NCBI RefSeq assembly: GCF_024198235.1
Contig: NZ_JAKCFB010000002.1
Span: 496,001-560,000, forward strand
DNA from: Myxococcus dinghuensis
GTDB lineage: Bacteria; Myxococcota; Myxococcia; Myxococcales; Myxococcaceae
Length of the DNA: 64,000 bases
Direction: 5' to 3'
The position numbers and the translations under genes were made by a program. Below the pieces are notes generated by a model. That model did not search any database, was not told where the DNA came from, and saw only the letters and a program-made list of their open reading frames with translations. Position 1 is the first letter of the stretch, and the number at the start of each line of letters is the position of its first letter. Shown piece after piece: positions 17,005 to 28,870 of this stretch.

Positions 17005-17047
17005 GGCCCGTCGTCAGATTCCGCGCCCACCGCGCGTCCCTTTTCGC

Positions 17048-17182
17048 GCGCCCGTCAGCCGAGGCCCGACACGCACTCATCTCGCTGGTTCGAATCCAGC
17101 TCCCTCCTCGCGGAGGGATGGCCGAGTGGTCGAAGGCACCAGACCGTTAATCTGACAGACACCGGCTCCGGCACTCGGGCGC
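17048..17182 (+). ncRNA. Y-RNA-like (YrlA-type) RNA with circularly permuted tRNA domain, copy 1
   Basis: Outer helix GCGCCCG (17048-17054) pairs with CGGGCGC (17176-17182). A second helix pairs 17058-17064 with 17166-17172 and has one A.C mismatch and one G.U. After the conserved ACACGCA come a perfect T arm (17084-17100, loop TTCGAAT), the 3' acceptor strand TCCCTCC (17101-17107), loop TCGC, and the 5' acceptor strand GGAGGGA (17112-17118), which pairs over 7 bp. Then follow a D arm with GTGGT (17121-17137) and an anticodon-like arm (17140-17154) with loop CCGTTAA. The anticodon would be GTT, but U33 is C. It ends with ACCGG. This is a tRNA cloverleaf with its 3' half placed first, as in bacterial Y RNAs. 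It lies between the convergent propeller and helicase genes. Transcription is inferred; ends are approximate. Confidence 0.82.
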
Positions 17183-17198
17183 ACCCTTCTCTCCCCCA

Positions 17199-19508
17199 CT
17201 ACCCTGGCAGCAGGAAGCGGGCGATGACGCGCTTGAGGCCCACGGCGCCCCCGAACTCCACCGTCACCTTGGCGTTGGGCCCCGTGCCATCCGTGGCGAC
17301 GATGCGGCCCACGCCGAACTGCTCGTGGCGCACGCGCATGCCGCGCACGTCCCCGCCGATGCCCTCCATGTCCGAGGCCTGCGAGTACGAGCGGTCGATG
17401 CGCGGCCCGTCGTCCTCGTCCCAGGTGCGCCTGCGCGGCGCAACCGGGGCCGCGCGCGGGGGCTCCGGTACGTCCTGCTCGCTGATGCCGAACAGGGCCG
17501 GAGGCACGTCACGCAGGAAGCGGCTGGGCGGGTTGTAGCGCAGCTCGCCGAACAGCGAGCGGCACTGCGCCAGGCTCACGAAGAGCCGCTTGCGCGCGCG
17601 GGTGAAGCCCACGTAGCAGAGCCGGCGCTCCTCGGCCATCTCCTCGCCGTCGTCCGGGTCCTCGCCCTTGAGGGCGCGCGAGTGAGGGAAGACGCCATCC
17701 TCCAGGCCGGTGAGGAACACCGCGTCGAACTCCAGGCCCTTGGCCGCGTGCAGCGTCATCAGGGCCACGCGCCCCTCGCCCACCTCGGCGTCCGCGTCAC
17801 CCACCAGGGAGATCTGCTCCAGGAACGCCTGGAGCGGCGGCGTGTCCGCGGACAGCGGCGCGGCGTCCACCTCCGGCGGCACCTCCGCGGGGGGGGTGCT
17901 GGCGGCGGCCACGGCGGCGGCGGCGCGGTTGAGGTCGAACTCCTGGGCGGCGCCCAGGAACTCGCGAAGGTTCTCCGCGCGCGTCTGGGCCTCGTCGCTG
18001 CCCTCGGCCATCAGCGTCTCGACGAGCTTCGTCTCGCGCAGCATCTCGTCCACCGCGCTCGCGGCGTCCGTCGTGCCCTGGGCGAAGCCGGTGAGCGACT
18101 CCAACAGCGCGCGGAAGGTGCGCAGCCGCTTGACGGCGGTGGCGTTGAGCGCGGGGATGCGCTCCGGCGCGGCGAGCACCTCGTAGAGGCTCTGTCCCAC
18201 GGTGTTGGCGTGGTCCATCACCCGCTCCACCGTGGTGTCGCCGATGCCGCGCGCCGGGGTGTTGATGATGCGCAGCAGGTCCGCGTCCGAGCGAGGGTTG
18301 ACCATCAGCCGCAGGTACGCGGACGCGTCGCGCACCTCCGCCCGGTCATAGAAGCTGCGCCCGCTCACCAGCGTGTACGGCACGCGCGCCAGCCGCAGCG
18401 CCTCCTCGAGCACGCGGCTCTGCGCGTTCACCCGGTAGAAGACGGCCATGCTGGAGAACTTGATGAAGCCCTCGCGCTGCAGCGCGAGAATCTGGCGCGC
18501 CACCTCCTGCGCCTCCATCCGCTCGTCGCGGTTGAGCAGCAGCGACAGCGTCTGGCCCGCCGGCCGGTCCGACCAGAGCTTCTTCTCCATCCGCCGCGTG
18601 TTCTTGCGGATGACCTCGTAGGCCGCGTCGAGGATGTTGCGGTCCGAGCGGTAGTTCTGCTCGAGCTTCACCACCCGGGCGCCGCGGTACTCGCTGGGGA
18701 ACTCGAGGATGTTGCCCACGTCCGCGCCGCGCCAGCGGTAGATGGACTGGTCGTCGTCGCCCACCACCACCAGGTTCGCGGACGGGGGCGGCGCCAGGAG
18801 CCGCAGCAGTTCGTACTGCACCGGGTTGGTGTCCTGGAACTCGTCCACCAGCACGTGGTGGAAGCGGCGCCGGTAGTTGGCGAGCACGTCCGGCTTCTTC
18901 TTGAAGAGCGACACCAGCAGCAGCAGCAGGTCGCCGAAGTCCACCGCGTTGGCCGCGCGCAGCCGGTCCTGGTAGGCGCGGTACACCTTGCGCACCAACT
19001 GACCGCGCTCGTCACCCGGCTCCACCACCATGTCCTCGGGAAGCCGCGCCGCGTTCTTCTCCTGGTCGATGCGGCTGAGGATTTCGCGCGGCTGCATGGA
19101 CTGCTCCAGCCCCGCCTCGCGCATGGCGCGCTTCACCACGTTGAGCTGATCCCCGTCGTCGTAGATGACGAACGAGCGGGTGAGCCCCACGTGCTCCGCC
19201 TCGCGGCGCAGAATCATGGCCGCCGACGAGTGGAACGTGCTCACCACCAGGTCGTTCGCCTGGGGCCCGAGCAGTTGCACCAGGCGCTCGCGCATCTCCC
19301 GCGCCGCCTTGTTGGTGAAGGTGACCGCCAGGATGCGCCACGGGAAGACCCCCCGGACCTTCACCAGATGCGCCACGCGGCGGGTGATGACGCGCGTCTT
19401 GCCACTGCCGGCGCCCGACAGGACGAGCAGCGGGCCCTCGCCGTGCAACACGGCCTCGCGTTGCGGGGGATTCAGGTCTTCGAGGAGTGCGGATTCGTGG
19501 GCGTTCAC
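17199..19508 (-). CDS. UvrD/PcrA-type superfamily 1 DNA helicase
   Basis: A 769-aa ATP-dependent 3'-5' helicase for repair and replication. Motif Ia-type N-terminus LNPPQREAV, Walker A SGAGSGKTR (31-39), TFTNKAAREM, motif II VDEFQDTN, motif III GDDDQSIYRWRGA, motif IV EQNYRS, motif V LMTLHAAKGLEFD and motif VI EERRLCYVGFTRAR are all present. The C-terminus (about 700-769) has the Tudor-like RVRHEQFGVGRI segment found in PcrA/UvrD, which binds RNA polymerase. Length and motifs fit UvrD/PcrA better than Rep. Its 3' end lies 16 bp from the first Y-RNA-like element. Confidence 0.92.
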   Translation of the reverse strand: MNAHESALLEDLNPPQREAVLHGEGPLLVLSGAGSGKTRVITRRVAHLVKVRGVFPWRILAVTFTNKAAREMRERLVQLLGPQANDLVVSTFHSSAAMILRREAEHVGLTRSFVIYDDGDQLNVVKRAMREAGLEQSMQPREILSRIDQEKNAARLPEDMVVEPGDERGQLVRKVYRAYQDRLRAANAVDFGDLLLLLVSLFKKKPDVLANYRRRFHHVLVDEFQDTNPVQYELLRLLAPPPSANLVVVGDDDQSIYRWRGADVGNILEFPSEYRGARVVKLEQNYRSDRNILDAAYEVIRKNTRRMEKKLWSDRPAGQTLSLLLNRDERMEAQEVARQILALQREGFIKFSSMAVFYRVNAQSRVLEEALRLARVPYTLVSGRSFYDRAEVRDASAYLRLMVNPRSDADLLRIINTPARGIGDTTVERVMDHANTVGQSLYEVLAAPERIPALNATAVKRLRTFRALLESLTGFAQGTTDAASAVDEMLRETKLVETLMAEGSDEAQTRAENLREFLGAAQEFDLNRAAAAVAAASTPPAEVPPEVDAAPLSADTPPLQAFLEQISLVGDADAEVGEGRVALMTLHAAKGLEFDAVFLTGLEDGVFPHSRALKGEDPDDGEEMAEERRLCYVGFTRARKRLFVSLAQCRSLFGELRYNPPSRFLRDVPPALFGISEQDVPEPPRAAPVAPRRRTWDEDDGPRIDRSYSQASDMEGIGGDVRGMRVRHEQFGVGRIVATDGTGPNAKVTVEFGGAVGLKRVIARFLLPG

Positions 19509-19633
19509 GGGTGACTCAGGAGGAAACGCCTGCTTCTAACGTCTTTCTCCGTCGAGTGGGGACCCTTCCACCACCCCGGCCCGCCCGCCCGTCCCCTGGC
19601 CCCGCCCCGCTCGGATATAAAGGGAGCCATCCC

Positions 19634-20119
19634 ATGTCCGACTCCCCGTCCGGCCCCCCCTCACGGCCGTCCCAGGCCGACCTGGACCGCTACGCCACGC
19701 TCTTCAACCAGAGCCTCACCCTGCGTCACTTCGGCGCGCACCTGTCGTTCCCGGAGGGACGCAAGGTGGTCATCTCCCTGCCGGAGGTCCGTCCGGAGCA
19801 CCGGGGCGGGGTGGGCAGCGCCGCGGCCGTCAACGGCGGCATCCTCGCCGCCCTCTTCGACCTCGCCATCGGCACCAGCGGCGCGCTCGTGGACCCCAGC
19901 CGCCGCTGCGCCACCGTGCAGCTCTCCATGAGCTTCGAGCGTCCCGTCACCGGCGACCACCTGCGGGTGGAGGCCGAAATCGACAGCCAGGGCCTCACCC
20001 TGCTCTTCGCCACCGCCCGCGTGTACGACGCGCAGGGCCGCATGTGCGCCCGCTGCCAGGGCGTCGTCCGCCTCTCCAACCTCCCTTGGGCCTCGGGGGA
20101 AAGCCCCGCCGTCAACTGA
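19634..20119 (+). CDS. PaaI-type hotdog-fold thioesterase
   Basis: A 161-aa protein of the acyl-CoA thioesterase hotdog family. The active-site segment reads HRGGVGSAAAVNGGILAALFDLAIG, matching the N/D-G-G-x2-x-A-L-x-D pattern of PaaI enzymes, followed by VQLSMSFERPV. It should hydrolyse aryl- or acyl-CoA thioesters. ATG 19634 has a ribosome site (aaaggga) 8 bases upstream. It is divergent from the helicase and has no linked pathway genes. Confidence 0.85.
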   Translation: MSDSPSGPPSRPSQADLDRYATLFNQSLTLRHFGAHLSFPEGRKVVISLPEVRPEHRGGVGSAAAVNGGILAALFDLAIGTSGALVDPSRRCATVQLSMSFERPVTGDHLRVEAEIDSQGLTLLFATARVYDAQGRMCARCQGVVRLSNLPWASGESPAVN

Positions 20120-20242
20120 CCCTTGACCACCCGCACCCACACATTCCCCACCGACGACGATATGTCCGCCTCGGACACACGTTACTCGGGCACCGGGGAG
20201 CGGCCGCATCCCGGCCACGCCACGGAGCGACGGGAAGACGGC

Positions 20243-20890
20243 ATGGGTGCAGCCGTGCAGGGCCTGCGGATGACGACGGTTCGACTGTCGAGGGAAGCCG
20301 AGGAGCCGATGGAGGAGCCGGCGCGCGCGGGGGACGAGGAAGCCCTGGCGCGCCGGGCCCTGACCGGCGACCGCGCGGCCTGGGACGCGTTGGTTGCGCG
20401 CCACCACCGCCGCGTCGTGGTATCGCTCCTCGCCCGAGGCGTCCGGGTGGACCGGGCGCATGAGCTGGCCCAGGAGACCTGGGCGCGGCTCATCCAACAA
20501 CAGCAGCGTGGGCTGCTGACGGAGCTGCGCCTGCCCAACCTCGCCCTCACCCAGGCGGCCTTCCTGGCCGCGGACGATGCCCGTCGCGCCCGGCGCGAAT
20601 CCATCTCCGGGGCGGTGGAGGAGCTTCCCGAGCGCCAGCACCCGGTGGACCCTTCGGTCTCCGCCGAGCGCCGCCTCCTGTCGGAAGAGCAGCTTTCCCG
20701 CGCCCACGCCGCGCTCGCCCAGGTGTCGCCGAGCGCGCGGAGCGTTTTCCTCCTGGCCTGTGACGGCCAGGAACTCCCCCATGCCGAAGTCGCCGCGCGC
20801 GTCGGCCTGTCCGTGCAGCGCGTACGACAGATCCTGTGCGAGGTCCGCAAGAAGCTGCGGACCGCGCTCGAGGAGGAAACCCATGCTTAA
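20243..20890 (+). CDS. ECF-like RNA polymerase sigma factor 1
   Basis: A protein of about 215 aa with a region-2-like helix pair (WDALVARHHRRVVVSLLARG, AHELAQETWARLIQ) and a C-terminal region 4 (LAQVSPSARSVFLLACDG, then a helix-turn-helix ending VQRVRQILCEVRKKL). No sigma region 1 or 3 is evident, so it is ECF-type. The start is uncertain: ATGs at 20243, 20270 and 20309 are in frame, and the last has the best ribosome site (gaggag). The gene overlaps the anti-sigma gene by 8 bp, the usual layout for a sigma/anti-sigma pair. Confidence 0.75.
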   Translation: MGAAVQGLRMTTVRLSREAEEPMEEPARAGDEEALARRALTGDRAAWDALVARHHRRVVVSLLARGVRVDRAHELAQETWARLIQQQQRGLLTELRLPNLALTQAAFLAADDARRARRESISGAVEELPERQHPVDPSVSAERRLLSEEQLSRAHAALAQVSPSARSVFLLACDGQELPHAEVAARVGLSVQRVRQILCEVRKKLRTALEEETHA

Positions 20891-21434
20891 GCCCCACCTG
20901 ACCCGCGACTCCGCGGAGCAATACATCCTGGGCGCGCTCGCCCCGGAGCGGGCGGCGGCGCTGGAGGCCCACACACTGGAGTGTGAGCCATGCGCCCGGC
21001 TGCTTCAGGAAGAGGCCCTCCTGTCCGAACAGCTCCACGAGGTCGCCCAGGCCCTCCCCGGCGAGGAGCGCGTCGTGCGCCCCGCCCGCTGGAGCGCGCG
21101 CTACAGGGCGGCGGGCACGGCCGTGGCCGCCATCGCCGCGGCGGCCGCGCTGGCCCTGGTCGTGGCGCGCGTGCAGCAACCGGCACGCGGCGGCGCGTCC
21201 GTGCCGCGCGTGCTGGACGCCCAGCCCCCCACGGTGGCACTGGGTGAGGAGGAGCCTCCCACCAACATGGTGGCCTGTCCGGACCTGGCCACGCAGGAAG
21301 CCTGCACGCGCAAAGCCGCGGAGCGGGGCCTGCTGGTCATGAACCCCTGGGGCACCGCCGAGGTGCCTCGCTACGAGGCCCGCACGGGCCTCCCCGAGGG
21401 CGCGCTCAGCGCGCGCCAGCCCGTGTCGCTGTGA
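20883..21434 (+). CDS. Zinc-finger anti-sigma factor, membrane-anchored, partner of sigma 1
   Basis: A 183-aa protein. The N-terminus carries HTLECEPC (His-x3-Cys-x2-Cys), the ZAS/zf-HC2 motif that holds ECF sigma factors inactive. One transmembrane helix follows (about residues 78-98, very Ala/Val rich). The remainder, about 85 residues containing two cysteines, would be periplasmic. The ATG overlaps the sigma-factor stop (ATGCTTAA), so translation is coupled. The exported protein encoded next is a candidate sensor input or target. Confidence 0.8.
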   Translation: MLKPHLTRDSAEQYILGALAPERAAALEAHTLECEPCARLLQEEALLSEQLHEVAQALPGEERVVRPARWSARYRAAGTAVAAIAAAAALALVVARVQQPARGGASVPRVLDAQPPTVALGEEEPPTNMVACPDLATQEACTRKAAERGLLVMNPWGTAEVPRYEARTGLPEGALSARQPVSL

Positions 21435-21445
21435 GGACGGCCACC

Positions 21446-22621
21446 ATGGACTTCCGGAAGAAGCTCGTTGCCCTGCTGCTCGCGCTGGCCGCTCCCATGG
21501 CCCACGCGGGAGCGTCGGGCAGCGCCCAGAAGCTGCCGGTGGGCTGGTACGTCACGGAGAGCGCGCCCAAGCGCTACGAGGCGGGTGTGGACACCAGGTC
21601 CCCTTGCGAGGGCACCCGCAGCGCCTTCCTGCGCTCGCTCTCCACCGACGAGAACGGCTACGGCACCTTCATGCAGGCCTTCGGCGCACAGGACTTCCGC
21701 GGCAAGCGGCTGCGCTTCTCCGCCGCCGCGCGCGTGAAGGACGTGGAGGGCTGGGCAGGCCTGTGGATGCGCGTGGAGGGCCCGGACCCGAAGCAGCCGC
21801 TCGCCTTCGACAACATGCAGTCGCGCGCCCTGGTCGGCACGCGGGGCTGCAAGCGCTACGAGGTGGTGCTCGACGTGCCCCCCGAGGCAACCACCATCAT
21901 GGCCGGCCTCATCATGAGCGGCACCGGCCAGGCCTGGCTGGATGGGGTCCGCTTCGATGTGGTGGATGGTTCGGTGGCGGTGACGGATCTGCTCGCCTCG
22001 CGGCAGTTGGTGGCCTCCACCGGCCCCGCCAGCCTCGACGACGCCGAGCCCGTCGTCTCGAGGAACGACCAGGTCCCCATCGGGCGCGTGGGCGACGTGT
22101 GGTTCAACCACGGGCGCGTCGCGGCGGACAAGCCGTACACCCGCCGCACGGACGGCGTCTGGGTGAGCATCCTCGGAGAGGAGCTCTACGAGCACGGCAT
22201 CGAGGTGACGGGGACGTTCGGCCAGCGTCAGGTCGATCTCAAGGTGAAGGCAGGCGGGCCCCGCACCACCATCGAGGGGACCTGGGGCGGCGAGCCGGTG
22301 CTCATCCAAGTCAACGCGGACGCGCTCACCATGAAGTGGGGACGGCTGACGCGGGAGATGCTGCGAGAGAAGACCGCGCAGGTGGAAGCGTCCTGCAACC
22401 GCTACCAGCGCACGGATGGCCCCCGGGTGATGGACCAGCTCGACGTGTGCGGCGCGGCGCTGGGCACGCGGCCTCCGGCGACCCAGTTGGTCATGGCATT
22501 CCTGGCCACTGGCTTCCGCAACACGCTCCCGCCGCGGAGCTTCCCCATCCCGCAGCCGCCCATCCGCAGCCGCCAGGCGCTCGACACGGCGGAGCGCGGA
22601 GGCGGCCCCGAGATCCAGTGA
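21446..22621 (+). CDS. Exported protein of unknown family, likely regulated by sigma 1
   Basis: A 391-aa protein with a Sec signal peptide (MDFRKK, then a Leu/Ala core, cleavage after AHA). Residues about 30-180 look like a carbohydrate-binding-type beta sandwich: GWYVTESAPKRYEAG, then LRFSAAARVKDVEGWAGLWMRV, ending AWLDGVRFDVVD. Such modules occur as ligand-binding add-ons in bacterial regulators. The rest is beta-rich with no catalytic motif seen. It begins 11 bp after the anti-sigma gene, so the three form one operon, probably for envelope stress or nutrient sensing. Function unknown. Confidence 0.65.
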   Translation: MDFRKKLVALLLALAAPMAHAGASGSAQKLPVGWYVTESAPKRYEAGVDTRSPCEGTRSAFLRSLSTDENGYGTFMQAFGAQDFRGKRLRFSAAARVKDVEGWAGLWMRVEGPDPKQPLAFDNMQSRALVGTRGCKRYEVVLDVPPEATTIMAGLIMSGTGQAWLDGVRFDVVDGSVAVTDLLASRQLVASTGPASLDDAEPVVSRNDQVPIGRVGDVWFNHGRVAADKPYTRRTDGVWVSILGEELYEHGIEVTGTFGQRQVDLKVKAGGPRTTIEGTWGGEPVLIQVNADALTMKWGRLTREMLREKTAQVEASCNRYQRTDGPRVMDQLDVCGAALGTRPPATQLVMAFLATGFRNTLPPRSFPIPQPPIRSRQALDTAERGGGPEIQ

Positions 22622-22675
22622 CGACGCGCGGGGGCCGCGCCTCGACGCGGGTCCCCCGTCCAACGTCCGCCTCCG

Positions 22676-23863
22676 TCAGAAGGCGAAGTCCTTCTCCATC
22701 GTCTCGTTGCCCGCCTGCACCGACAGGTGGGCGGAGCGCGCGCCGGTGGAGGACGCGGTCGTCAGGTCGAAGGACAGGCCCTCCGGACCGTTGGACGGCT
22801 TGAGCGAGGGACGTCCCGGACTGAGGAACACCGCCGCCGTCACCGTGCGCCCCGCCAGGGGCTGCACCAGCAGACGGACGCGCTGACGCTCCCGCACCAG
22901 CACCACGCGGAACTCCCGCCGCTCCTCCAGCACCTCGCGGTGCTCCGGGTGGCGCGCCGCCAGGGGGCGCTGCGACACCGGGGCACGGGACGTACGCGCG
23001 GCGGGGGACAGGCCCGCGTCGCCCTCCTCCATCTCCAGGGCATCCTCGATGGCGTCGTCACCCTCGCCGAGCGCCAGCACCGCCTGGGCGCACTCGCCAC
23101 AGCGTGCGGTGTGCGCGTCGACGCGGGAGCGCTCGTCCTCGCTCATCAGCCCCATGTCGAAGCGCCAGAGGTCGTCCTCCGTCAGGTGGCGGCGCGGGGG
23201 CGAATCCACGGGCGCCGCGTCCGCGATGTCCGCGCGGCAGTCCGCACAGCCCTGGAGGTGGGGGGTCGACGACTGGGCTCCACCCGTCCAGGTGGCCACC
23301 AGGTCATCGCAGCCGGCCCGGGCGGAGAACCACCAGGCCTTGTCCTGCTCGGCGGGCTCGAGGAGGTCGCGCTCCTGCCGGCGCTGCGGATTGAGTGGGA
23401 TGAACCAACGGGCCCTGGGGCGGAGTGCCGAATCCAGTTTCCCCAGGCCCTCGACAAAGCGCTCCAGGTTTCGCGCCGCCTCGCCGTCGAGAGGACCGTG
23501 GAGCGCTTCCCAGGCCACCAGCGCCACCACCGCGGAGGCCGCCCTGTCGCGAGCGGCCAGGCCCTCCATCGCCGACAGGCGCCACATCTCCGCTTCCTCG
23601 CCCCCGTCCAACACCACCTCCACCGCTTCTTCCGCCGCCCTCAACAACACGGGTTGGAGTGCTTGCGGTTTCTGCGCCTGGAGCCATGTCTCCACTTCCC
23701 GCCGACCGAGGCCCCGGAGGGCATCCTCCACACCTTCGGTCCCCACCTGCCTCGAGCGTCTCAGCAGATCCCCGGCGACTTCCAGGACGACACCAGGAGA
23801 AGAGGACCCGGCGGTGAGCTGCTGACGGCGGGCGGTATAGCGGGACATGGCTGCGGTGTTCAT
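22676..23863 (-). CDS. Double zinc-finger anti-sigma-like protein, partner of sigma 2
   Basis: A 395-aa soluble protein with two His-x3-Cys-x2-Cys motifs: HLQGCADC (about residue 204) and HTARCGEC (about 251). Each is of the ZAS type that binds ECF sigma factors. The N-terminal 190 residues are helical without a recognisable fold. The C-terminal 110 residues are beta-rich (FRVVLVRERQRVRLLV). No transmembrane helix is evident, so it would act in the cytoplasm. It follows the ECF sigma gene by 46 bp on the same strand, and the pair faces the first sigma operon. Confidence 0.7.
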   Translation of the reverse strand: MNTAAMSRYTARRQQLTAGSSSPGVVLEVAGDLLRRSRQVGTEGVEDALRGLGRREVETWLQAQKPQALQPVLLRAAEEAVEVVLDGGEEAEMWRLSAMEGLAARDRAASAVVALVAWEALHGPLDGEAARNLERFVEGLGKLDSALRPRARWFIPLNPQRRQERDLLEPAEQDKAWWFSARAGCDDLVATWTGGAQSSTPHLQGCADCRADIADAAPVDSPPRRHLTEDDLWRFDMGLMSEDERSRVDAHTARCGECAQAVLALGEGDDAIEDALEMEEGDAGLSPAARTSRAPVSQRPLAARHPEHREVLEERREFRVVLVRERQRVRLLVQPLAGRTVTAAVFLSPGRPSLKPSNGPEGLSFDLTTASSTGARSAHLSVQAGNETMEKDFAF

Positions 23864-23909
23864 GAATTCATTCCTCCTGAATACCCCGGGATATGACCGG
23901 ACAGGAGGC

Positions 23910-24578
23910 TCACGCTTCCTCCCCGGGTGACTCGCGCTGGAGATCCAGCAGGTAGAGCTTCAAGTAGGCCTGGGCGCGGCTGACGCGCTTGTAGGAATTG
24001 ACGACGCTGATGTTCAGACGACGGGCGCATTCCTCGTGATCCTCCACGTCCTCGTGGTGGTACAGCTCCCACGCCGAGGCTTCCTTGGGGTGCTCCTGCT
24101 GGAGTCGGGCGAAGGCCGCCCAGTACAGCTCCTGGGCCTCGGCGCGCTCCTCGCGACGCCGGCCCAGCTCCACCGCGCGGGCCGTCTCGGAAGGCGGCTC
24201 CTCCATGGCGTCATCGGGGTCTGACGGAGGGGCCGCGAGCTCCTCGCGGTGCCGCCGGTAGAAGTCGATGGCCACGTGCTTGACGATGCGCAGGAAGAAC
24301 GTCTTGGGAGACGCGCTCCGGCCGGGCATCTGCTGCGAGACGCCCCGGAACTGGTCCAGGCCGCGGTCGAGGAACTTCCCCACCGCGTCCTGGAAGAGCT
24401 CGTCCGCGTCCGCTGGGGACCCGCGACCGTAGCTCGCCTGGATCTTGCTGATGACGTAACGGGCAGGCCGGTTCCACCGCTGCACCAACGTCCCGAGCGG
24501 CCCTCCAAAGGGCTCGTCAGTGGCGCGGCGGCGGACCACCTCCGCGAACAATTCGTCATCCGAGAGCTGCTCGTACAC
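23910..24578 (-). CDS. ECF-type RNA polymerase sigma factor 2
   Basis: A 222-aa protein. Region 2 is visible as DADELFQDAVGKFLDRGLDQFRG followed by FFLRIVKHVAIDFYRRHREE. Region 4 lies at the C-terminus (ALQQEHPKEASAWELYHHEDVEDHEECARRL then SVVNSYKRVSRAQAYLKLYL), where the last part is the DNA-recognition helix. It starts 280 bp from the second Y-RNA-like element, in the opposite direction, and is followed by its probable anti-sigma factor. The regulon is unknown. Confidence 0.78.
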   Translation of the reverse strand: MYEQLSDDELFAEVVRRRATDEPFGGPLGTLVQRWNRPARYVISKIQASYGRGSPADADELFQDAVGKFLDRGLDQFRGVSQQMPGRSASPKTFFLRIVKHVAIDFYRRHREELAAPPSDPDDAMEEPPSETARAVELGRRREERAEAQELYWAAFARLQQEHPKEASAWELYHHEDVEDHEECARRLNISVVNSYKRVSRAQAYLKLYLLDLQRESPGEEA

Positions 24579-24758
24579 CGGAAGGACCTGGGGGCTGTGC
24601 CCGGAGAACCGCCCCGGGAGATGGGATTACGGGGATGTGGCGCGGCAAAGTACCACGTTGGCATCCGCAGGCAGCCTCCGAGTGGAGCAGGGGGCCCTCC
24701 CCCCGGTGGTACCGGGCGGGTGGGACACCTTGGAAGGCCCGACGCCGGCGGCGCCGGC

Positions 24759-24820
24759 TTCCTGACAATTCACCCCCGAGGGCGGACCGGGCTCCCCACC
24801 GGGCGCCCCGCTGTCAGGAA
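24759..24820. promoter_or_regulatory. Interrupted inverted repeat TTCCTGACA / TGTCAGGAA
   Basis: A perfect 9-bp inverted repeat (24759-24767 and 24812-24820) separated by 44 bp of GC-rich sequence, in the 280-bp gap between the sigma-2 start and the second Y-RNA-like element. It could be a binding site for a dimeric regulator acting on either transcript, or a hairpin. There is no other support. Confidence 0.3.
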
Positions 24821-24858
24821 TCCAGGTTTGGCCGAGTCCCTGGCCGCATCGCTTTCGA

Positions 24859-24984
24859 GCGCCCGGCAGGAGAGGCCCCACAAGCAGTGGTTCGACTCCA
24901 CCCAGCTACCCCTCGGGGCAGATGGTCGCCGGCGGTCCGGCACTGAAATCGGGATTCAGCCTTCCGGCCTTCCCACTCGGGCGC
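24859..24984 (+). ncRNA. Y-RNA-like (YrlA-type) RNA with circularly permuted tRNA domain, copy 2
   Basis: Outer helix GCGCCCG (24859-24865) pairs with CGGGCGC (24978-24984). The second helix pairs 24869-24875 with 24968-24974 and again has one A.C mismatch next to a G.U. The conserved ACAAGCA is followed directly by a T arm with a 4-bp stem (24887-24901, loop TTCGACT). The acceptor-like helix is longer than in copies 1 and 3: 24902-24912 faces 24915-24925, 11 positions with two mismatches, closed by CTCG. A D arm (24928-24941, GGCGG in the loop) and a perfect anticodon arm follow (5-bp stem 24943-24947/24955-24959, loop ATCGGGA; anticodon CGG with U33, as in proline tRNA). CCGG closes the module. 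It ends 28 bp before the metallophosphatase start. Confidence 0.78.
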
Positions 24985-25012
24985 TCAATCTTCATTCAAG
25001 GAACCCCTGGTC

Positions 25013-25720
25013 ATGTCGCCCCGTACCATCGTCATCGGAGATCTCCACGGCTGCTACGACGAGGCCCTGGAGCTGCTCGACAAGGTCGGGGCTACTTCCA
25101 GCGACCGCGTCATCTTCGCGGGCGACCTGGTGGACCGGGGCCCCCGCCGCCGGGAGTGCGTGGAGCTGGCCATGCGGCACGAGGCCGTCCTGGGCAACCA
25201 CGAGGAGGCGCATCTCCAACAGCGGCGCCGCCCGGACGAGCGCCTGCTCCCGGACCACCTGGAGACGCGGCGAGCCCTGGAGCCGGAGCACTACGACTGG
25301 ATGGCCCGGCTGCCCCACTACCTGCGGCTGCCAGAGCACGACGCCGTCGTCGTGCACGCCGGCATGCTCCCCGACCTGCCCGTCGAGGCGCAGAATCCGT
25401 ACCACCTGCTGCATGCCCAATGCATCCAGCCACCAGCGACCAAGAGCTACTGGCCCTCCAAGGCCCCGGAAGGCTTCACCTTCTGGACGCACCACTGGAA
25501 GGGACCCGAGCGCGTCATCTTCGGACACACCGTCTTCGACCGACCGCTCGTCACCGAGCACGCGGTGGGCATCGACACCGGGTGCGTCTACGGCCGGTCG
25601 CTGACAGCGGTGGTGCTCCCGTCGTGGGAGCTCGTCTCGGTGCCGGCCCGGAAGACCTACCGGGGTGGCAAAGAGGTGGCGCGATTCCCGGTGCATGGCG
25701 ACGTGTGCGTCTATTCGTGA
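25013..25720 (+). CDS. Calcineurin-like metallophosphatase (PrpE/ApaH/Pnkp-phosphatase group)
   Basis: A 235-aa binuclear metallophosphoesterase. The metal-binding blocks are in order: GDLHGCYDE, GDLVDRGP, GNHEE, VVHAG, and a C-terminal GHT. The HGCYDE/DRGP spelling is shared by diadenosine-tetraphosphatases (PrpE), protein phosphatases and the phosphatase domain of the bacterial RNA-repair enzyme Pnkp. It lies between two Y-RNA-like elements (28 bp after copy 2, 39 bp before copy 3) and upstream of the Ro-like gene. That context makes an RNA-end or nucleotide-cleaning role attractive, but this is inference; family motifs alone do not fix the substrate. Confidence 0.85.
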   Translation: MSPRTIVIGDLHGCYDEALELLDKVGATSSDRVIFAGDLVDRGPRRRECVELAMRHEAVLGNHEEAHLQQRRRPDERLLPDHLETRRALEPEHYDWMARLPHYLRLPEHDAVVVHAGMLPDLPVEAQNPYHLLHAQCIQPPATKSYWPSKAPEGFTFWTHHWKGPERVIFGHTVFDRPLVTEHAVGIDTGCVYGRSLTAVVLPSWELVSVPARKTYRGGKEVARFPVHGDVCVYS

Positions 25721-25759
25721 GCCCCCGTCGCTGACCGCACCTCCCGGTTCTTCGCTTTC

Positions 25760-25893
25760 GCGCCCGGCCGCCGGGGTCCTACACGCACACGTGAGATGCG
25801 GGTTCGAGTCCCGCCGGGGCTACATGGCCCCGTAGATCAATCGGTAGATCACTGGACCTGACTCCAGACGCACCGGCCTCGGCACTCGGGCGC
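25760..25893 (+). ncRNA. Y-RNA-like (YrlA-type) RNA with circularly permuted tRNA domain, copy 3
   Basis: Outer helix GCGCCCG (25760-25766) pairs with CGGGCGC (25887-25893). The second helix (25770-25776 with 25877-25883) is fully paired with one G.U. After the conserved ACACGCA come a perfect T arm (25798-25814, loop TTCGAGT), the 3' acceptor strand CGGGGCT (25815-25821), loop ACAT, and the 5' acceptor strand GGCCCCG (25826-25832). A textbook D arm follows (GATC, loop AATCGGTA, GATC; 25835-25850), then an anticodon arm with stem CTGGA/TCCAG (25852-25867). Its loop is only 6 nt: it reads like glutamine CTG but lacks U33. ACCGG precedes the closing helix. It lies 159 bp upstream of the Ro-like gene, the usual place for a bacterial Y RNA. 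Confidence 0.85.
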
Positions 25894-26052
25894 ACCCTTT
25901 CCCTCCATCCCAGCTTCGCGTGGACCCGCCCGTGACTCCTCCAGGAGGCCCGGGAGGGGTCCACGCGTTCCCACGCGCGGCGCACTCCTCTCGCCATGAC
26001 GCGAGAGGTCCGCGCCACGCCTGACCCGCGGCACGTCCCGAAGGGGGACTTC

Positions 26053-27816
26053 ATGACCACGCCCCAGAACCCGTCCCTGCTGCCCGAGGCCCAGCTCGGC
26101 CCGGCCGAGCGCCTGCTGGACCTGGTGCTCAGCGGCTCCGCCCACCTGTGGCACAACCGCCCCGGACTCGACGTGGACGGCGTATGGCACGCCGCCGCGC
26201 ACGCCCTGCCCCAGCTCAAGGCCCGTGGCCGTCCGGTGAAGCCCGGCCTGTTCGTGCCCGCGGCGGTGAAGCTCTACCGGCAGTTGCTCGACATCTACCG
26301 GCTCAACTCGGAGCTGATGGCGCACTTCGCGTCGTACGCGCTGACGCAGACGGACTGGCGTGACCTCAAGGTGGCCACGTGCGCGCTGATGCTCGTGCAG
26401 GGTCACGCGGGTCAGCCCGTGCGGGGCGACGACGGCGCGGTGGCGTTCCACGACGACGACTGGCGGGCCATCGGCGAGGCCATGGTGCTGCACTACGAGC
26501 GCAAGTCCACGCGCATGCTCACGCCCAAGGCGGTGCTGCGGGTGGCGGAGCTGCTCGAGCAGCCGGACATCGCGCGCCTCAACCGTGAGGCGGGCTTCGG
26601 CGACCCGGCGTCCCGCAAGGCGCCGCTGGGCCGCTGGAAGCGCGTGGCGACGCGGTGGCTGGCGGCGCGTGAGGCCAACCCGACCATGCTCCAGGGACTG
26701 GTGAAGGCCGGCTACAAGGAGACGCTGAAGAGGCTGGCGCGCAAGGCGGGGTACAAGCCGCGCGCGCAGGGCTTCTTCGAGGTGCTCGGCTGGAAGCAGA
26801 AGCAGGCTGAGGGCGGGCACCGCACGGTGGGACTGGACGGGCTGACGCTGGTCAAGCGCGAGCGCTTCGACGGGCTGTCGGAGGCGGAGATCTGCGAGTG
26901 GGTCGAGCTGGAGCGCCTCTCCTACAAGGAGGTGGTGGGCCGGCTGCCGAAGGACGTGGGCCTGACGCCGGCCATCATGGCGGCCCTCCTGCCCTCGTTG
27001 TCGGACCGCGACCTGCGGCTGATGACGCCGACCCTCGAGGAGCTGGGGCTCCTGGCGGAGCCGTCCGTGCGCGCGCGCTGGGAGAAGGCGGTGCAGACCG
27101 CCACCGACCAGCGGGCGCTGAACATCGCGAAGAACGTGCGCAGCCAGGCGCTGCGCCAGAAGCTGGAGGAGGCGAGCGACAACGCCGCGCGACACGCGGT
27201 GGCGGAGGCGACGGCGGAGACCGACGTGCGGGTGATGTTCCTCATCGACAAGTCGGGCTCCATGGAGGGCGCCATCGAGAACTCGAAGGAGGCGCTGGCG
27301 CGCATCCTCGCCGGGTTCCCGGAGGAGAAGCTGCACATCGCGGCGTTCGACACGATGGGCACCGTCCTCAAGCCGAAGGCGTCCAACCGCGCGGCGGTGC
27401 AGCACATGCTCGCGAACCTGAAGGCTTCGGGTGGCACCGCCCACATGGCGGGCGTCCACGCGTTGAATCGAGCGGGGGTGCGGGTGCCGGAGGGGGCGAA
27501 GCTGGTGGTCATCGTGGTGGGCGACGAGGCGGGTGAGGCGGGTGACCAGTTCGCCCGCGCCTTCCGTGACTGCGGCTACACGGTGGCGGCGCTGGCGTTG
27601 TTGGTGAGCGTGGCGGGGGCCCGTGGCAACACGGTCCGCACGTGCGCGAGCCAGCTGAAGGTCCCCTTCAGCGAGGTGAACGTGGACCAGTTCTCCGACC
27701 CGTACCAGGTCCCCCGGGTGCTCAAGGCGCTGCTGGATGCGCCGACGGCCCCCGGCGCCAGCCAGTCCGGCTGGGTGGAGCGGGTGATGCGCACGCCGCT
27801 CTTGAAGGTGGCGTGA
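26053..27816 (+). CDS. Ro60/Rsr-like protein: helical repeat region plus von Willebrand A domain
   Basis: A 587-aa protein. Residues 1-390 are predicted to be almost entirely helical, in HEAT-like pairs (for example YRQLLDIYRLNSELMAHFASYAL and RVATRWLAAREANP). Residues about 390-560 form a vWA domain with the MIDAS motif DKSGSM (399-404) and the Thr of GGTAHM (462). Ro60/Rsr proteins have this size and order: a helical ring binding Y RNA and misfolded RNA ends, closed by vWA. I do not see the usual TROVE N-terminal signature, so it would be a divergent member. Two Y-RNA-like genes directly upstream strongly support the assignment. ATG 26053 has the site aaggggga. Likely co-transcribed with the next two genes. 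Confidence 0.62.
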   Translation: MTTPQNPSLLPEAQLGPAERLLDLVLSGSAHLWHNRPGLDVDGVWHAAAHALPQLKARGRPVKPGLFVPAAVKLYRQLLDIYRLNSELMAHFASYALTQTDWRDLKVATCALMLVQGHAGQPVRGDDGAVAFHDDDWRAIGEAMVLHYERKSTRMLTPKAVLRVAELLEQPDIARLNREAGFGDPASRKAPLGRWKRVATRWLAAREANPTMLQGLVKAGYKETLKRLARKAGYKPRAQGFFEVLGWKQKQAEGGHRTVGLDGLTLVKRERFDGLSEAEICEWVELERLSYKEVVGRLPKDVGLTPAIMAALLPSLSDRDLRLMTPTLEELGLLAEPSVRARWEKAVQTATDQRALNIAKNVRSQALRQKLEEASDNAARHAVAEATAETDVRVMFLIDKSGSMEGAIENSKEALARILAGFPEEKLHIAAFDTMGTVLKPKASNRAAVQHMLANLKASGGTAHMAGVHALNRAGVRVPEGAKLVVIVVGDEAGEAGDQFARAFRDCGYTVAALALLVSVAGARGNTVRTCASQLKVPFSEVNVDQFSDPYQVPRVLKALLDAPTAPGASQSGWVERVMRTPLLKVA

Positions 27817-27850: not shown

Positions 27851-28870
27851 GTGGACTACCGGAAGTTCCTCGGGAAGGTGGAGTCGGTGGTGCTGCCGTA
27901 TCTGGGCGGCGGCACCGTGGACGCCGCCTCGCGCCGCCTCCGTGTCACCACCCCGGTCGCGCCGGGGTGGTGGCGCTTCGAGATGAAGGGGCGGGACGCC
28001 ACGGCCCGTGAGCAAGCCGCCCCAGAGGGGATGGACGCCCTGCCCCGCGTGCGGGGCCACGTCTGGGGGACGCGGCTGGTGCGCGAGGGCGCGGTGGCCG
28101 AGCCCCTGGACCTGATGCCGGAGGAGGAGCCGCCACGGCTGGCGCCCATCTCCGCGCGACGTTGGCATGATGGCTCGCTGCTGTTCGACAGCGTCGACTT
28201 CGAGAGCGAGGCCGAGGACACGGCGCGGCGCGCGCTCGAGGAGGGTCGCTCGCTCGCGGAGGTCCGCGGCGTGGCGTCCTCGCTGCGCGCGGCGTTCGGC
28301 TACACGCTGTTGGAGCAGACCTCGCGGGCGCTGGACATCCGCTTCACGCCCGCCGAGGCGCGGGGACGCGTGCTGTCCGTGGCAGAGGGAGGCCGGCCCG
28401 AGGCCGAGTCCTGCCTGCGCCACCTGAGCGCGGAGCGCGAAGCCCACCAGCGCGCCCGGACCGCACGCGCGGCCCTGGCCCAGGTCCGGGACCAGGAGGC
28501 GCGTGACGCGGAGCGAGCCCGGCAGTTGGCGAGCGTTTGGGCGGAGCAGGCGCGGCGACAGACGGCACGGAGCGGTCGCTCCGCGGGAAGGTCGTCGCCC
28601 GCGAATGACTGGTCGCGCGCGGAGGCAGCCCTGGCAGGTTCAGGCGCGCGATTGGCGGCCCAGCGCCGCCTCACCGGCAACGCGATGGAGGTGACGTACG
28701 TCTTCATGGGGGAGCGCTTCATCTCCGTCGTGGATGCGGACTCGCTCCAGGTCGTGGACGCCGGCATCTGCCTGGCGGGCGCGGACAGCGAGGTGACGTT
28801 GGAGAGCCTGCCGTCCGTCATCCGAGAGGCCATCGAAACCGACGTGCTGGTGATGACCCGACACGTCTGA
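27851..28870 (+). CDS. Conserved-context hypothetical protein, 339 aa, in Ro-like operon
   Basis: No family recognised. Three parts are visible. The N-terminus is beta-rich (about 1-140) and begins MDYRKFLGKVESVVLPYLGGG. The middle is helical and Arg/Ala/Glu-rich (about 185-240, AEREAHQRARTARAALAQVRDQEARDAE), likely a coiled coil. The C-terminus is a compact domain (about 270-339: EVTYVFMGERFISVVDADSLQVVDAG). GTG 27851 has a strong site (ggaaggaggc) 7 bases upstream. It sits 34 bp after the Ro-like gene and 19 bp before the JAMM gene. It could be an adaptor or conjugation partner in that system; there is no direct evidence. Confidence 0.6.
   Translation: MDYRKFLGKVESVVLPYLGGGTVDAASRRLRVTTPVAPGWWRFEMKGRDATAREQAAPEGMDALPRVRGHVWGTRLVREGAVAEPLDLMPEEEPPRLAPISARRWHDGSLLFDSVDFESEAEDTARRALEEGRSLAEVRGVASSLRAAFGYTLLEQTSRALDIRFTPAEARGRVLSVAEGGRPEAESCLRHLSAEREAHQRARTARAALAQVRDQEARDAERARQLASVWAEQARRQTARSGRSAGRSSPANDWSRAEAALAGSGARLAAQRRLTGNAMEVTYVFMGERFISVVDADSLQVVDAGICLAGADSEVTLESLPSVIREAIETDVLVMTRHV

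Follow-up and report, generated by a model that had tools for sequence, protein, structure and literature searches.

A window of 64,000 nucleotides (nt) from Myxococcus dinghuensis (contig NZ_JAKCFB010000002.1, positions 496,001 to 560,000) carries three plus-strand elements, E1 (17048..17182), E2 (24859..24984) and E3 (25760..25893), and, on the same strand, a gene for a 587-amino-acid (aa) protein (26053..27816) composed of a helical N-terminal part and a VWA domain with a DxSxS motif. The gene starts 159 bases past the end of E3, with the RNA upstream; an in-frame ATG upstream of this start lies at 25996. A first-pass annotation made from the sequence had described the elements as transfer RNA (tRNA)-like RNAs with the 3' half first and had matched them to the YrlA-type bacterial Y RNAs. 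Its coordinates were exact on sequence check, and all three elements are indeed placed between likely genes, in the case of E1 between convergent ones.

Read from 5' to 3', E1 begins with a 7-bp outer helix, a second helix and an ACAmGC junction, and the T arm comes first; the same holds for E2 and E3. In each element, the T arm leads into an acceptor hairpin, in which the 3' acceptor strand precedes the 5' strand and a short loop connects the two; a D arm and an anticodon-like arm come next, and the 3' part consists of the second strand of the second helix, an ACT trinucleotide and the closing strand CGGGCGC. The outer helix (GCGCCCG at the start, CGGGCGC at the end), the ACT ahead of the closing strand and the motif upstream of the T arm, written here as ACAmGC, were found in 3/3 elements as annotated. 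Three further motifs needed qualification: the second helix is present throughout but imperfect in E1 (A-C mismatch), the downstream CCGG of all three elements is kept only in near relatives and is reduced to GGC beyond them, and the T loop TTCGANT of the three elements becomes TTCRANT in the wider family.

In E1, the T arm spans 17084-17100, the acceptor hairpin 17101-17118, the D arm 17121-17137 and the anticodon arm 17140-17154 (loop CCGTTAA). The T and D arms of E2 are at 24887-24901 and 24928-24941, the anticodon arm is at 24943-24959 (loop ATCGGGA), and the long acceptor-like hairpin (24902-24925) has a stem that exceeds tRNA length and contains mismatches. E3 is closed by an outer helix (25760-25766/25887-25893) and a second helix (about 25770-25776/25877-25883) and carries T arm (25798-25814), acceptor hairpin (25815-25832), D arm (25835-25850) and anticodon arm (25852-25867), the latter with a 6-nt loop. 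The minimum-energy fold of E3 gave the proposed cloverleaf on two closing helices and, in addition, one small hairpin; for E1 and E2, agreement between fold and proposed structure was only partial. Each element is immediately preceded (17040-17047, 24851-24858 and 25752-25759) by T-rich sequence containing TTTCG or TTTTCG, which may belong to a promoter.

The permuted order was analysed with ARAGORN, which detected no tRNA in the linear 64-kb window, as had been expected of a standard tRNA finder, and none in the linear inner sequences of E1, E2 and E3. With doubled inner sequences, one tRNA per element was obtained in 3/3 cases, namely Asn(gtt) for E1, Pro(cgg) for E2 and a tRNA with a 6-nt loop for E3. 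When both strands of the window were scanned blindly for circularly closed tRNAs, the three elements emerged with support values of 82 (E1), 21 (E2) and 72 (E3); the next-best clusters reached 7 (inside E2) and 3, and the maximum in ten first-order Markov sequences of window length was 10. A coarser earlier scan with one window length had detected E1 and E3 and missed E2, and a search of the window with Rfam at gathering scores found nothing. Circular closure and blind scan agree in all three elements, which are circularly permuted tRNA cloverleaves with the 3' half placed before the 5' half of a complete cloverleaf. They share this order with the circularly permuted tRNA genes of algae and archaea, from which they differ by a conserved stem frame, by the tie to a Ro60-like gene and, for E3, by the lack of the hallmarks of a decoding tRNA.

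Homologues in the same genus and further out were found by an outer-helix pattern search, the pattern by itself giving many chance matches too (reversed-pattern control). From 54 collected elements, 34, some with trimmed starts, were hand-picked for a clean variable-loop-opened form and aligned (alignment A3). Phage members, presumed anticodon-opened ones, one long-insert element and near duplicates were left out, a selection that biases the pair counts towards the variable-loop-opened form; 13 circular matches without the motif stayed unframed in the collection (4 of these are two phage elements, counted twice). Covarying helices in homologous elements, on which the first-pass annotation had staked its reading, are present: the 32-pair structure of A3 was formed in 93.5% of cells, with changes on both sides in 25/32 pairs and a covariation of 0.623, compared with 0.193 after shuffling (0/500 shuffles reach the observed value) and ≤0.124 with slid partners. 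The anticodon arm was paired in 95.6% of cells, with double changes in 4/4 pairs, and the D arm was the weakest helix (paired in 75% of cells). Unaided, RNAalifold recovered the two closing helices and, of the four arms, all but the D arm. The acceptor loops were short and mostly without CCA. Invariant in A3 were the D-loop GG and the T-loop TTC.A, sequence features that would allow the formation of dihydrouridine and pseudouridine by tRNA-modifying enzymes.

The covariance-model search of myxobacterial genomes that had been proposed was carried out with model R1, in which E1, E2 and E3 were all among the building sequences and viral sequences were not. The window elements scored 113.4 bits (E1, E = 7.5e-23), 92 bits (E2, E = 7.7e-18) and 111.3 bits (E3). 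In the same genome, a fourth copy (77.7 bits) and a shorter fifth one (39.7 bits) lie next to each other on contig C43; the fifth (G000 C43:65378-65493) consists of the frame with small hairpins only and has no tRNA. A cis-acting leader of the Ro60-like operon, T-box-like or an attenuator, would account for the short distance between E3 and the gene start. We consider it extremely unlikely in view of E1, which is about 9 kb off between convergent genes, the two copies on contig C43, and strong copies on contigs other than that of the gene in further genomes (e.g. G099, G100 and G157).

The computed co-occurrence of RNA and protein was nearly complete. In a survey of 195 genomes of the phylum Myxococcota, the Ro60-like protein was present in 77, and a strong R1 match (E < 1e-10) was found in 75 of these and in 0 of the 118 protein-negative genomes, hence in 75/195 overall (Fisher 1.9e-52, uncorrected for kinship). 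The cut was chosen after a gap had been seen between E values of 8.1e-13 and better and those of 1.1e-7 and worse, and the search was run with Infernal's stricter filters. Of the two protein-positive exceptions, one has a weak protein match confined to the VWA domain (G043), and the other is a genome of 85% completeness (G158). In three genera (g18, g22 and g40), RNA and protein are both present in some genomes and both absent from others. In addition, 78 bacterial loci were fetched by similarity, 77 of which could be scanned; a framed permuted tRNA was located within ≤2.5 kb upstream of the gene in 34 of them, with up to six in tandem (L132), and unframed matches in two further loci were set aside. 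The position of the RNAs is conserved between orthologous loci; this grouping excluded two sequences whose type was unclear, and the E1 and E4 groups, with two sequences each, were too small for analysis. In the window, E2 and E3 stand beside the Ro60-fold gene, in keeping with a Y RNA in the wide sense, encoded near a Ro60 orthologue. The tRNA-derived bodies, their multiple copies and a permuted sequence of this genome that has no frame could also be read as dispersed tRNA-derived repeats without function, an explanation of practically negligible probability: the compensatory changes in 25/32 pairs already contradict it, as do the tight co-occurrence with one protein and the conserved position.

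Pfam recognized only the VWA domain of the 587-aa protein above cut-off, and the Pfam TROVE model had 0 matches in the window's genome; across the phylum, it matched 5/195 genomes, 4 of them above cut-off. The AlphaFold2 model of the protein (predicted local distance difference test score, pLDDT, 86.4) retrieved Ro60/TROVE structures at Foldseek ranks 1-11, with a best E value of 3.4e-10. VIA-align superimposed it on the TROVE structures 9kop (Z 15.2, 423 residues), 9nen (Z 14.8, 428 residues) and 2nvo (Deinococcus Rsr, Z 14.4, 424 residues). Single VWA domains gave Z values as high or higher (up to 16.1), but over only about 160-175 residues. In the predicted model, the Ro60 fold extends over both domains, and D399, S401 and S403 of the metal-binding DxSxS motif were invariant among 64 sequences. 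From this model we read the gene as coding for a Ro60-fold protein overlooked by the sequence model, which resembles Ro60/Rsr (TROVE plus VWA) in its predicted fold (aligned over 423-442 residues) and in a VWA domain with DxSxS, and differs in being unseen by Pfam TROVE and in having a conserved downstream partner (27851..28870, plus strand, 339 aa). The absence of a canonical Ro60, judged by Pfam TROVE, had been considered as an argument against a Y RNA and was reversed by the fold comparison. PADLOC found no defence system when run on the two neighbouring proteins, and PHROGs gave only weak matches to the VWA part, including phrog_850 'RNA-binding protein' (E = 0.017 for the window's protein).

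The assignment to YrlA-type Y RNAs was borne out in part. In favour are the permuted tRNA, the position of the Ro60-fold gene past E3 and the co-occurrence of RNA and protein; the retained anticodon arm, the opening at the variable loop and an Rfam YrlA score below the gathering score do not agree with it. Passages of PMC8394870 describe YrlA as a Ro60-binding stem that bears a D, a T and an acceptor arm. In the Rfam consensus (RF02553; Salmonella), a two-helix closing stem with a conserved CUAC-type junction bears T arm, acceptor hairpin and D arm in the same permuted order as here, and the gene lies near Ro60; the elements likewise have T, acceptor and D arms permuted on a closing stem, the D arm being the weakest. 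As described, YrlA has no anticodon arm, whereas the elements keep a well-paired one, open at the variable loop and occur in several copies with fast-changing anticodons. The YrlA model scored E3 at 44.1 bits, with a gathering score of 69, and did not list E1 or E2 at E ≤ 10. In two genomes of the phylum, Ro60 is detected by Pfam and has YrlA matches of 42.9 and 43.2 bits nearby; a low score thus does not exclude kinship. Owing to their anticodon arm and to scores short of the Rfam threshold, we assign the elements to the Y RNAs as a kind but not to YrlA in its defined sense. A permuted tRNA-like domain is also found in permuted (two-piece) transfer-messenger RNA (tmRNA), and Rfam tmRNA_permuted gave a sub-threshold match of 30.8 bits in a YrlA-bearing relative; the elements differ from it in that no coding part was found and an anticodon arm is present. 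A search of the literature on Y RNA, YrlA and Ro60, including Myxococcus and phage, retrieved no account of the variant, which is not proof that it is unpublished. Taken together, the elements are very probably Y-RNA-class RNA partners of the divergent Ro60-fold protein.

The anticodon triplet changed fast in comparison with fourfold sites and flanking DNA. The 34 aligned anticodon loops contain 26 distinct triplets, with U33 in 28/34 and a purine at position 37 in 30/34, the 6-nt loop of E3 having been entered with one stem base. Orthologues in the window's genus displayed 12 distinct loops among 25 distinct E3 sequences and 18 among 25 for E2, where the set also includes two sister-genus genomes and two sequences transferred from the E3 group. 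Rates were computed on the Ro60-like gene tree, with each element obtained from 27 of 30 loci. The triplet underwent 6.33 changes per site in both E2 and E3; the corresponding values were 1.94 and 2.24 for fourfold sites, and 0 and 0.9 for the stem of the anticodon arm. Pooled flanking intergenic sites gave about 3.0 changes per site, and random six-site sets reached the triplet sum with P 0.0018. The triplet rate, determined for 6 sites, is about twice that of flanking intergenic DNA and three times that of fourfold sites.

These rates bear on two other explanations. Permuted genes of functional tRNAs, whose transcripts would be cut in the acceptor loop and closing stem, re-joined and used in decoding, would fit the complete cloverleaf, the U33 and purine 37 of most aligned members and the 3'-half-first order. 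We regard them as very unlikely, given orthologue anticodons that keep changing, short acceptor loops that lack CCA in most rows, the 6-nt anticodon loop of E3 with most E3 orthologues devoid of U33, and a conserved Ro60-like partner not expected for a tRNA gene. In a classical Y-RNA tether, the tRNA module would recruit a nuclease such as polynucleotide phosphorylase (PNPase) to the Ro60 ring, and the anticodon arm would be a weakly constrained passenger. Parts of PMC8394870 and PMC7790460 describe a degradation particle formed by Rsr, Y RNA and PNPase, with a role in degrading structured RNA in Deinococcus. The closing stem and the T, acceptor and D arms are the same in both cases, and RNA loops as a rule vary more freely than other parts of the molecule. 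The pairing of the anticodon arm in 95.6% of cells with double changes in 4/4 pairs argues against a passenger, and the triplet outpaces flanking intergenic DNA and fourfold sites beyond the expectation for a loss of constraint while U33 is mostly kept; the tether is therefore rather unlikely.

Viral sequences contributed a further 26 loci with the Ro60-like protein, on contigs between 70 and 619 kb long, 16 of which exceed 200 kb; from their size and the collection they come from, we take these contigs to be phages. In Virus Rctr197k (Caudoviricetes), the gene directly follows an array of 30 tRNA genes, and ten or more tRNA/tmRNA genes were present within the fetched 12.6-18 kb in 15/24 viral loci (two duplicates left out). 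Circular matches in dense phage tRNA arrays are often chimaeras of adjacent tRNAs and were not counted. The phage RNA count rests on R1; some of its weaker matches in phages are ordinary tRNAs, and 13/25 viral sources with the protein gave full-length matches at E < 1e-8, with none in the 11.8 kb of Rctr197k. Part of PMC7824862 notes a small subset of jumbo phages with a ROT/TROVE protein. In genome G051, a locus with a Pfam-detectable Ro60 (L206 186-2287) has a tRNA array and a YrlA match, again pairing Ro60 with a tRNA array.

We infer that the elements are transcribed, bound by the Ro60-fold protein and used as decoys. The closing stem of two helices with its conserved internal-loop and junction motifs is the putative Ro60 handle. 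It would display a whole tRNA cloverleaf that is opened at the variable loop and has its acceptor strands joined by a short loop; there is therefore no free CCA end and no usual charging as such. The displayed L-shape would attract tRNA-reading proteins, and the unusually rapid replacement of the triplet, in a retained arm that mostly keeps U33, makes the anticodon the most likely feature for the ligand to read. This wide account, Y-RNA-class tRNA mimics with an anticodon-reading ligand, is the one we favour with some confidence. Tentatively, the RNAs, which the Ro60 ring would hold or deliver, may be decoys or baits for anticodon nucleases in particular, or for similar tRNA-targeting enzymes. 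The fast triplets, the several copies with different anticodons and the presence in tRNA-rich viral genomes would all be accounted for by an arms race with such nucleases. A more complete version is doubtful as a whole: a Ro60-based tRNA-decoy system of bacteria and giant phages, in which sets of permuted or normal-order mimics in a common Y-RNA frame, whose rapidly replaced anticodons all differ, would trap or sense anticodon-reading toxins and defence nucleases, with the downstream partner as effector or loader.

Several results weigh against this interpretation. With respect to Ro60, the Foldseek template modelling scores of the protein take moderate values (0.39-0.52, by query length). In 43/77 bacterial loci, a scan of at most 2.5 kb upstream of the gene detected no framed permuted tRNA; the upstream sequence is short in a part of them, and a part of these genomes have the RNAs on other contigs. 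The E3-type loops of the window's genus mostly lack U33. The rate test comprises only 6 sites, multi-base replacements inflate its count, and individual columns in other parts of the RNAs have as many as 10 and 11 changes. The search for an anticodon nuclease, limited to PADLOC on two proteins, connected none with the loci. Finally, at L198 1476-1638 (minus strand, contig C44 at about 104.2-104.5 kb), the window's genome holds a permuted tRNA-like sequence without the frame, with a circular support of 93. This locus is one of the next seven R1 matches of the genome (L195-L201), where ARAGORN identified tRNA genes in 6/7 loci and none in L198. A second, weaker permuted tRNA-like sequence adjoins the first.

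The candidate Ro60 lineage is invisible to the Pfam TROVE model, and its tRNA-mimic partners carry the anticodon, the one tRNA part that YrlA is described as lacking. An anticodon that changes faster than its flanks provides a testable handle on the purpose of bacterial Ro60 and Y RNAs and would tie them to the conflict between bacteria and phages over tRNAs. In addition, a single frame with tRNA modules opened at different points constitutes a natural experiment in RNA permutation.

The content of the frame varied among loci. Five bacterial loci (L128, L129, L130, L132 and L136) contain a normal-order tRNA between the junction motif and the closing CTCGG, and framed plus-strand ARAGORN tRNAs amounted to 5/116 in bacterial and 0/267 in viral loci. 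Their bodies are similar and their anticodons differ, and by sequence they may share one origin. As normal-order and permuted tRNAs occur in one frame, the frame accommodates tRNAs with either of two openings, at the acceptor end or in the variable loop. Frames with only small hairpins were seen in two Archangium and two Virgisporangium loci (e.g. L091 9885-9979, L146 9870-9958 and L151 9872-9960); they come from an early frame finder that mixed real and chance matches and was not used for counts. A possible YrlA-like opening in the anticodon loop was read by eye in L135:2753, L126:4978 and L127:9414; the minimum-energy folds did not clearly bear it out. At L140 6171-6346, the acceptor loop of a permuted element is enlarged by a long additional hairpin. 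The genomes G129 and G132 have a second Ro60-like gene copy with its own tandem pair of permuted RNAs (L062 3805-4096 and L064 11077-11368).

The partner gene downstream of the Ro60-like gene is conserved and has no Pfam family above cut-off. A homologue was present ≤500 nt downstream in 57/68 bacterial loci reaching at least 700 nt further; it was farther away in six of the remaining loci and missing in five with room. Only its C-terminal part was found in 9/24 non-duplicate viral loci, in six of these as a separate protein of 68-109 aa (e.g. L161 11450-11719, L183 10516-10719 and L184 12858-13184). The model of the partner protein (pLDDT 91.1) had no Foldseek match at E ≤ 0.001, and its best VIA-align Z of 5.5, with weak matches resembling the oligonucleotide/oligosaccharide-binding (OB) fold, gives only a hint of an OB-like RNA-binding protein. 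A calcineurin-type phosphoesterase is encoded between E2 and E3 (25013..25720, plus strand; partial NCBIfam matches to ApaH, PrpE and Pnkp, all below cut-off). It is present in only 14/78 bacterial loci and was dropped as a core part of the system. On the minus strand adjoining E2 (22676-24578), a gene for an extracytoplasmic function (ECF)-type sigma factor is followed by a zf-HC2 (anti-sigma-like) gene. Among the bacterial loci, L148 derives from a contig titled Comamonas sp. KCTC 72670 and encodes a protein 87% identical to the Myxococcus one; the source is probably a mislabelled myxobacterium.

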